Source: Laceyella sediminis (GTDB taxonomy: Bacteria; Bacillota; Bacilli; Thermoactinomycetales; Thermoactinomycetaceae). Taken from it: a stretch of DNA of 64,000 nt. Each line of letters opens with the position of its first letter. Position 1 is the stretch's first letter. Shown here in pieces: positions 16,528 to 49,533 of this stretch. The notes beneath the pieces are model-generated. The model saw nothing but the letters and a program-made list of their open reading frames with translations, was not told the origin of the DNA and searched no databases. Position numbers and translations under genes: made by a program. The stretch lies in NCBI RefSeq assembly GCF_003003125.1, contig NZ_PVTZ01000002.1:186001-250000 (forward strand), read 5' to 3'.

Positions 16528-16564
16528 AAAAAAAAGAGGACTTTAGCTTCACTAAAATCCCCTC
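16528..16564 (-). terminator. Terminator of the atp operon
   Basis: CTAAAATCCCCTC and GAGGACTTTAG form an imperfect stem, followed on the minus strand by seven or eight U. It lies 36 bases after the atpC stop, so the short atpC frame is not followed by more coding sequence. Confidence 0.85.
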
Positions 16565-16599
16565 CAATAGCACAGCGACTTCTTTAAGCGCCACGCCAA

Positions 16600-16854
16600 T
16601 TATACGCCGGCCGACTTAGCTAAGATCGTCACTTTGTCAGGGCGCACTTCAATAAATCCGCCACTGACAGAAATGACCTCTTCTGAACCGTCTTTCTTAA
16701 TTCGCACCGTATCCCCTTTGAGCGGGCTAACAAAGGGGGCGTGTTTTGGGAGAATCCCAACATCCCCATTGGCCGCACGGGTGATGACCATTTCTACTTG
16801 TTCTGAGTAGACGACCTTTTCAGGTGTCACAATGTCCAACTGAATTTTGCTCAT
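16600..16854 (-). CDS. atpC: ATP synthase epsilon subunit, C-terminal domain missing
   Basis: The 84 residues match the N-terminal beta-sandwich of epsilon (MSKIQLDIVTPEKVVYSEQV; GDVGILPKHAPFVSPL; VSGGFIEVRPDKVTILA). The usual bacterial subunit is about 130-140 residues and has a two-helix C-terminal domain that inhibits ATP hydrolysis. Here the frame stops after that first domain. I looked in the other frames of the short stretch before the terminator and found no helix-domain remnant, so it seems truly short. The gene is separated from atpD by a terminator-like hairpin and a foldable leader. Its nearest ribosome site is weak. Confidence 0.93.
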   Translation of the reverse strand: MSKIQLDIVTPEKVVYSEQVEMVITRAANGDVGILPKHAPFVSPLKGDTVRIKKDGSEEVISVSGGFIEVRPDKVTILAKSAGV

Positions 16855-16933
16855 GTGGGCGTCCTGCTACTCCCTCGGGTGTCATCTTGGTATCAGCCAA
16901 GCGACGTACCTTGTAGCAGTGATTCACCTCCCC
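16855..16933 (-). other. Foldable atpC leader with a distant Shine-Dalgarno
   Basis: A perfect GGGGAGGTGA lies at 16924-16933, 69 bases before the atpC ATG and with no start codon next to it. Between them CTGCTAC pairs with GTAGCAG (16913-16919 and 16864-16870), enclosing an inner stem CTTGG/CCAAG. Folding would shorten the gap to about 13 unpaired bases. The local site before the ATG (AGGAC) is poor. Confidence 0.45.
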
Positions 16934-16954
16934 ATCTCGAGTTGAGGCTAGCTA

Positions 16955-16997
16955 AGAAAACTGCCTGGCAGAAACCCGATTCCTCTCCGCCAGGCAG
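16955..16997 (-). terminator. Terminator-like hairpin between atpD and atpC
   Basis: CTGCCTGGC (16961-16969) and GCCAGGCAG (16989-16997) are perfect arms. On the minus strand they are followed by TTTTCTT. It begins 12 bases after atpD. It may lower atpC transcription relative to the rest of the operon, or protect the upstream mRNA. Confidence 0.6.
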
Positions 16998-17008
16998 AAT
17001 GTTATGGT

Positions 17009-18421
<1,413 letters not shown>

Positions 18422-49275: not shown

Positions 49276-49311
49276 ATAAAAACGAGGAATGCAAGACAAT
49301 AACATAGGGAT

Positions 49312-49444
49312 ATCCTTCGGGGCAGGGTGAAATTCCCGACCGGCGGTGATGGGAAATGCGTTTCCCTAAGCCCGTGACCCGCTTACAAGCGGTGGATTCG
49401 GTGTGATTCCGAAGCCGACAGTATAGTCTGGATGGGAGAAGGAT
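49312..49444 (+). ncRNA. FMN riboswitch (RFN element)
   Basis: The hallmark words occur in order: ATCCTTCGGGGCAGGGTG, AATTCCCGACCGGCGGT, AGCCCGTGACCCG, GGATTCGGTGTGATTCCG, GCCGACAGTATAGTC and GGATGGGAGAAGGAT. The ends pair to close P1. FMN binding should favour the terminator at 49534-49570 and switch off the riboflavin transporter ribU. Confidence 0.96.
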
Positions 49445-49533
49445 GATGACGCGTACGAAAATCAAGGTACACGACCCAGGGTGGAGTCTGCCCTTTTACA
49501 ATAAAATGGGTTGTTTGCACCTTTCTTTCTGAT

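Follow-up and report, generated by a model that had tools for sequence, protein, structure and literature searches.

A hairpin between the Shine-Dalgarno sequence and the start codon of atpC in Laceyella sediminis: a probable RNA-bridged ribosome binding site with apparent counterparts across Thermoactinomycetaceae

How does a ribosome reach a start codon that lies far downstream of the strong Shine-Dalgarno (SD) sequence of the gene? The question is raised by atpC in a 64,000-nucleotide stretch (the window) of the genome of Laceyella sediminis, a heat-loving bacterium whose genome is also labelled G000 here. A sequence-only reading of the window had proposed that a folded spacer carries a distant SD to the atpC start. 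The gap between atpC and its upstream neighbour, which we take from its sequence to be atpD, is 154 nt long and contains, in order, a terminator-like hairpin, the SD GGGGAGGTGA, 69 nt with the arms CTGCTAC...GTAGCAG and an inner stem, and the ATG (Table 1). The distance of 69 nt and the two arms enclosing a second stem were found as the earlier description had them, and the approximately 13 unpaired bases said to remain between site and start are made up of ATCA (4) and GACGCCCAC (9). It had also noted that no start codon accompanies the distal SD, and indeed no ATG, GTG or TTG lies at SD distance from it; CTG, the first triplet of the stem, does sit there. The layout noted at atpC is confirmed, and it is wider than first noted.

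We consider it probable (roughly 0.72) that the atpC leader is an RNA-bridged, or split, ribosome binding site of a kind that recurs in cellular genes with a sequence signature. The 30S subunit would pair with the strong distal SD (GAGGTG), and the hairpin, running from 7 nt past GAGG to mostly 6-9 nt before the start, would stay folded and shorten the path, such that the start codon could reach the P site despite the 35 to about 143 nt that follow GAGG (72 nt in the window). In Thermoactinomycetaceae, hairpins of the CTG...CAG type would have been gained repeatedly between SD and start of housekeeping and sporulation genes, Laceyella atpC being one case.

Table 1. Features of the atpC locus, in window coordinates
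Feature	Positions	Strand	Basis or remark
atpD (ATP synthase beta), presumed name	17009..18409	minus	open reading frame and translation; upstream neighbour of atpC
Terminator-like hairpin CTGCCTGGC...GCCAGGCAG, then TTTTCTT at 16960-16954	16961..16997	minus	directly 3' of atpD
Distal SD GGGGAGGTGA	16924..16933	minus	computed pairing with the anti-SD, -17.8 kcal/mol
Left arm CTGCTAC	16913..16919	minus	first base 7 nt past GAGG
Inner stem-loop GTCGCTTGG-CTGATA-CCAAGATGAC	16881..16905	minus	conservation between genera absent
Right arm GTAGCAG	16864..16870	minus	exact complement of CTGCTAC
Linker GACGCCCAC, hairpin to start	16855..16863	minus	weak local AGGA here and in the arm end; proximal pairing -6.4 kcal/mol
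atpC, 84 aa, epsilon subunit without the C-terminal helical domain	16600..16854	minus	PF02823, E 4e-31
Probable operon terminator	16533..16565	minus	consensus scan, which as a whole yields no excess of sites over shuffles

The anti-SD context GGATCACCTCCTTTC is present 7 times in the genome. The hairpin at 16954-16997 may act as an attenuator between atpD and atpC, in which case the atpC transcript could drop relative to atpD; the 16961..16997 hairpin is absent from the list produced by the consensus terminator scan of the window. Terminator-like hairpins resembling CTGCCTGGC...GCCAGGCAG-TTTT also stand 3' of atpD in Thermoactinomyces daqus and in one further genome (G009).

The predicted folding of this single sequence exceeds chance to an extent that is suggestive only. 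For the window spacer after GGAGGTG, 2.7% of 300 shuffles fold equally well (0.04 for a slightly longer spacer), and the fold of a 167-nt piece spanning the gap is equalled by 3 of 200 shuffles (z -2.48) and that of a 112-nt context by 19 of 200 (z -1.25). Part of the SD is paired in both of the longer computed folds, a point against a freely accessible site. The hairpin retains a calculated -12.6 kcal/mol at 55 °C. The conclusion that the arrangement is more than chance therefore draws on the comparative evidence given below, since it is the recurrence of the layout, at atpC and at other genes, together with the empty sites that makes chance unlikely, and not the single fold. Another genome, G001, is placed in the same genus. 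Laceyella sacchari DSM 43356 has an identical AtpC protein, the atpD-atpC DNA is 98% identical, and the L. sacchari spacer differs from that of the window at 4 positions, all 4 of them unpaired in the window fold.

AtpC was retrieved by protein from all 23 genomes of the family Thermoactinomycetaceae, and the bridged layout was found in 9 of them, namely two from Laceyella, two from genus g4, three from g8, one from g9 and T. daqus. In these nine leaders GGAGGTG lies far upstream and the spacer after it measures 46-83 nt; inspection by eye places an SD-like run close to the start in the other 14. The minimum-energy fold of every one of the nine spacers is a single hairpin that leaves 2-5 nt free after GGAGGTG and 4-8 before the start, and it is better than shuffles in eight cases (p 0.027 or less) and not in T. 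daqus (p 0.16). The g8 arms are only 4 bp. That SD, hairpin and start are kept by relatives despite such different spacer lengths supports the proposal that the folded spacer would bring the distant SD to the start. Another family genome (G022) has a very long synthase-like reading frame upstream of atpC instead of atpD in the fetched stretch, either a rearrangement or an assembly artefact.

The layout appears, from the sequences compared, to form a recurrent class in Thermoactinomycetaceae, beyond what the sequence-only reading saw. The signature GAGGTG-N5-CTG...CAG-N6-9-start was located at at least 38 sites before about 20 unrelated kinds of gene in the family; 10 of the 38 were obtained via protein, 2 via a scan blind to the arm sequence and 26 via a pattern or model, and all site counts are lower bounds. 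A pattern based on atpC, GGAGGTGANNNNYTGC...GCAG...ATG, gave 12 matches in 9 of the 23 genomes, 6 of them away from atpC; its reversal gave 0 matches in the 23 genomes, a weak control because the reversed motif contains no SD. One of the six (G005:C39) was dropped, having no arms beyond the pattern and a 7-aa reading frame, and another (G005:C31) was retained despite a reading frame of only 12 aa downstream. Pieces of a group II intron lie upstream of the latter site (L131:376-986). When a tighter pattern was applied to 299 genomes of the class Bacilli, it matched 3 of 12 inside the family and 0 of 287 outside, and the rate inside the family shows the pattern to be insensitive.

Two covariance models place the layout before hup, lspA, sigG, glmM, asp23, rsfA, rsgA and ccdC, before AhpC-type, RsgI-type anti-sigma, PEP-hydrolase-like and transglycosylase genes, and before lactate/malate dehydrogenase-type, adenosylhomocysteinase-type and other genes. 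The finer names (hup, sigG, glmM and the like) are presumed, as are those of reading frames of 123, 76 and 454 aa and of a substrate-binding-type protein, which have no Pfam or NCBIfam match. With the first model 26 of the 41 matches examined were kept, and 15 were dropped for want of a gene start or a bridging fold or because only a 64-aa or 18-aa reading frame followed; the second gave at least 29 family matches at E 0.005 or better, training sites included. A class search of 200 genomes with the second model and stricter filters found at least 6 positive genomes, 3 of them outside the family. The three non-family sites (L206, L207 and L208) have an SD and an 8-10 bp hairpin flush to the start of a reading frame, with different arm sequences, and bridged sites may therefore occur elsewhere without the CTG...CAG signature.

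The criteria of the arm-free scan were an SD 7-mer that has no start nearby, a reading-frame start farther on and a bridging stem of 7 bp or more, whatever its sequence. It was run on 400 kb of G005, 400 kb of G022, 264 kb of the Laceyella genome and 200 kb of G012. Sites found against those expected from shuffles were 4 vs 1.75 in G005, 3 vs 1.0 in G022, 3 vs 1.2 in Laceyella and 1 vs 0.6 in G012 at 7 bp, and 3 vs 0.31, 2 vs 0.30, 0 vs 0.38 and 1 vs 0.22, respectively, at 8 bp. Although it was not a criterion of the scan, CTG stands 7 nt past GAGG in all 7 sites of G005 and G022; among the three Laceyella sites only atpC has it. G012 lacks the signature yet gave one scan site, without CTG 7 nt after GAGG. 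The sense strands of the G005, G022 and Laceyella stretches contain 7 hairpins of the form CTGYTAC...GTARCAG, every one of them between an SD and a gene start; the G012 stretch has one such hairpin, without an SD.

Among the 38 sites, the first base of the stem is placed exactly 7 nt past GAGG in 36 (6 and 8 in the remaining two), the triplet opening the stem is CTG in 36 and TTG in 2, and the stem ends 6-9 nt ahead of the start in 35; a right-hand distance of 3 at two sites is an artefact of picking the second CAG. The distance from GAGG to the start is 35-89 nt in 37 sites and about 143 nt in one. All of the 37 spacers folded are predicted to form one exterior helix, with a mean of about 10 unpaired nt from GAGG to start, and in 8 of them the outer predicted pairs extend into the TG of the SD. 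Filled sites read GAGGTG, with GGGGTG at one. This TG after GGAGG is outside the six commonest dinucleotides in ordinary genes of G005 and G022; it is among the commonest in the Laceyella genome, which leaves a longer, compensating SD as a suggestion. The CTG/CAG base of the stem is nearly invariant over the aligned sites. As the modal SD-start distance of ordinary genes is 7 nt in G005 and G022 (8 nt in the Laceyella genome), the NTG triplet occupies the position of a start codon, but paired; it could serve as a decoy, meet some geometric requirement of the 30S subunit or mark where an inserted unit ends. A pure distance bridge accounts neither for the constancy of CTG...CAG nor for the spacing of exactly 7 nt.

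If the stems matter as structure, their arms should change together, and compensatory changes in relatives had been named beforehand as the check on the proposal. They were seen over 25 sites and at glmM and are weak at atpC alone. Over the 25 sites, both sides have changed 24 times, in 7 of 9 pairs; as many pairs are obtained in 1 of 500 shuffles, and the covariation score in none of 500. At glmM such changes affect 4 of 8 pairs (12/500 shuffles), again with a covariation score that no shuffle of 500 attained. The six distinct atpC rows have both-side changes in 4 of 8 stem pairs, which 15 of 500 shuffles reach, but the covariation score is reached by 117/500 and the share of paired cells by 201/500, so atpC by itself is weak evidence for specific pairs. 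The rows of all covariation tables had the loop trimmed and the register set by hand, and thus lean towards structure; given this registration, and as most sites came from patterns or models that reward arms, the covariation is partly selected for.

Orthologs without the hairpin allow filled and empty leaders of the same gene to be compared. The lspA, sigG and glmM leaders were each fetched by protein from all 23 family genomes; the hairpin is present in 2 for lspA and 2 for sigG (G005 and G006 in both cases) and in 5 for glmM (G019, G022, G013, G002 and G010). In most of the hairpin-free orthologs (21 for sigG, 21 for lspA and 18 for glmM) SD and start are an ordinary distance apart. Both filled sigG sites retain the flank CATCCTG(A/G)GGAGG, and the empty sigG leaders mostly share the flank CATCCTGAGGAGG. 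The glmM leader of G010, with 10-bp arms CTGCTGCATA/TATGCAGCAG and the spacer of about 143 nt, was missed by the models and found via protein. The lspA leaders of G008, G017 and G020 (L282, L283 and L286) have AAGGAG or AAGAGAG directly before a hairpin of the GCGAGTATAC/GTATGCTCGC type and then a second SD near a TTG start, and possibly represent an insert of greater age that has recently acquired a local SD.

Could these genes be initiated from a local site after all? The ribosome might dock at the distal SD as at a standby site, whereupon melting of the hairpin would hand initiation to a weak local SD located within the right arm or beyond it, the hairpin mainly repressing or regulating the gene. 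An AGG, GGA or GAG triplet does lie 4-14 nt ahead of the start in 30 of the 38 sites, so that a weak local SD is often available, several right arms end in CAGGA 6-9 nt ahead of the start, and in Laceyella the AGGA of GCAGGA stands near the start, partly paired in the stem. However, a 4-mer match is found in only 12 of the 38, and the computed pairing with the anti-SD over 37 sites averages -4.6 kcal/mol for the start-adjacent region against -16.3 kcal/mol for the distal SD, local pairing being nearly absent at sigG (+0.6), C31 (-1.1) and the AhpC-type gene (-2.2) of G005 and at hup (-2.2, -2.5). On these energies initiation at the local site is not favoured, and we regard the standby route as rather unlikely. 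The constant triplet also invites the reading that the SD serves a short upstream frame opening at the CTG or TTG, with translation of the gene coupled to it; one of these two triplets is present in 38 of 38 sites, mostly at just the distance usual for a start codon. Yet the triplet is never ATG or GTG, a stop follows after 1 to 31 codons or is missing within the leader, the frame is unconserved even among the three near-identical g8 atpC leaders, and at one gene TTG faces CAA, a change that befits a stem. An upstream frame was rejected on these grounds of frame, stops and start codon, and is highly improbable.

More can be said for a regulated element, with the CTG...CAG hairpin as the target of a protein or small molecule that modulates initiation. 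The bridging conformation would then be the ON state, which makes this idea compatible with a bridged site. The near-invariance of the stem base exceeds what distance shortening needs, and the longer folds offer an alternative pairing of the SD; on the other hand, the nameable target genes have no evident common pathway, the interiors are no more alike than shuffles and no Rfam family falls on the element in the sources searched, and regulation of this sort seems to us unlikely, if less so than a standby site. Excision of the hairpin from the mRNA, in an RNase III-like or splicing-like manner, would restore the proximity of SD and start as the loss of an intron-like insert, and both the clean empty-site orthologs and the constant stem base, which resembles a recognition site, could be read in this way; but removal of CTG...CAG leaves about 15 nt and not the usual 7-8, and arms as short as those of g8 atpC occur, which render it very improbable. 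What the sequences show is the layout, its recurrence, the empty orthologs, the covarying arms and the weakness of the local SDs; that the ribosome meets a folded hairpin and initiates from the distal SD is our inference.

On a tree of GlmM, SigG and LspA, whose deep supports are low, the atpC hairpin occurs in a group of six genomes that includes Laceyella and separately in g8, the sister of which (G012) is without it; the glmM hairpin falls in g13 and in G002 and G010. Repeated gain of hairpins is the simplest reading of this distribution. Compared between genes, the interiors resemble one another no more than shuffled sequences do (best score 13, reached by 8 of 60 shuffled sets), and the likeness between sites is mostly in the SD and left arm. 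One 28-nt stretch, which runs from the SD through the left arm and reaches the loop, is 93% identical between g8 atpC (L011) and G005 lspA (L162), different genes of two genera, and hints at a common origin of some inserts. A mobile hairpin element of the MITE or REP kind seems unlikely in view of the interiors and because no copy was seen outside a ribosome binding site in the G005, G022 and Laceyella stretches, the 28-nt match leaving a shared origin conceivable. A phage origin was rejected, the signature pattern having 0 matches in the viral collection; a pattern of the same shape with other arms had 4 viral matches, all of one sequence inside a coding frame. Going further, the hairpins might be dispersed, repeatedly acquired RNA inserts of Thermoactinomycetaceae that originate or insert precisely in the interval from SD to start, with the paired NTG at the start-codon position, which the ribosome would pass over at initiation, and whose CTG...CAG base would be recognised by the ribosome or a factor, as a translational counterpart of an intron; we put this forward as a conceivable and still doubtful extension.

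The analogy to phage T4 gene 38 drawn for atpC was found to be apt: according to a review (PMC3014915), hairpins between SD and AUG cut the distance from 22 to 5 nt in gene 38 and from 27 to 11 nt in gene 25, and the gene 25 structure is described as retained in close relatives and missing from distant ones. As in these two genes, the hairpins of the family would shorten the SD-start distance, to about 10 nt on average as predicted. Unlike them, they precede cellular genes of about 20 kinds, with spacers to about 143 nt, a CTG...CAG base at a fixed 7 nt and an extended SD GAGGTG. The T4 cases were tested by mutation and probing, whereas the sites of the family are known from sequence and predicted folds. 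Escherichia coli thrS, with a split ribosome binding site, is comparable in that a long hairpin is accommodated by the ribosome without unfolding, next to a 24-nt single-stranded domain, but the passage on it places no hairpin between SD and start (PMC3936740). The leader of E. coli rpsA, which encodes S1, is also structured and has an SD-like sequence in pieces, for which SD pairing is disputed and recognition of GGA motifs by S1 has been proposed (PMC1805508); the sites of the family, in contrast, keep a strong intact SD. A literature search to which subscription papers were mostly closed yielded no description of bridged sites from Thermoactinomycetaceae, nor any of them as a class of bacterial genes, and the hairpin-bridged sites that it did find are few, chiefly from T4.

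A device known from phage thus seems to be an established part of how a bacterial family expresses its genes. The fixed signature before about twenty kinds of gene, matched by empty orthologs, provides natural experiments on bridging distance, structure and tolerance of insert size. It is also a warning for programs that call start sites, since in bridged genes the likely SD falls well beyond the region that is usually searched.

Cyanobacteria have a structured RNA in the ATP synthase operon, the ATPC RNA motif, and the element described here lies in such an operon too; the sole Rfam match at gathering score in the window is an FMN riboswitch at 49309-49447 (120 bits). The short epsilon subunit of the window has counterparts of 84-91 aa in G001, G004, G016, G009, G015, G002 and G010, and the other family members measured have 129-134 aa. 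A tie between the hairpin and the short subunit is ruled out: three g8 genomes combine the hairpin with an epsilon subunit of 129 aa, and G002 and G010 have a short one without an atpC hairpin.
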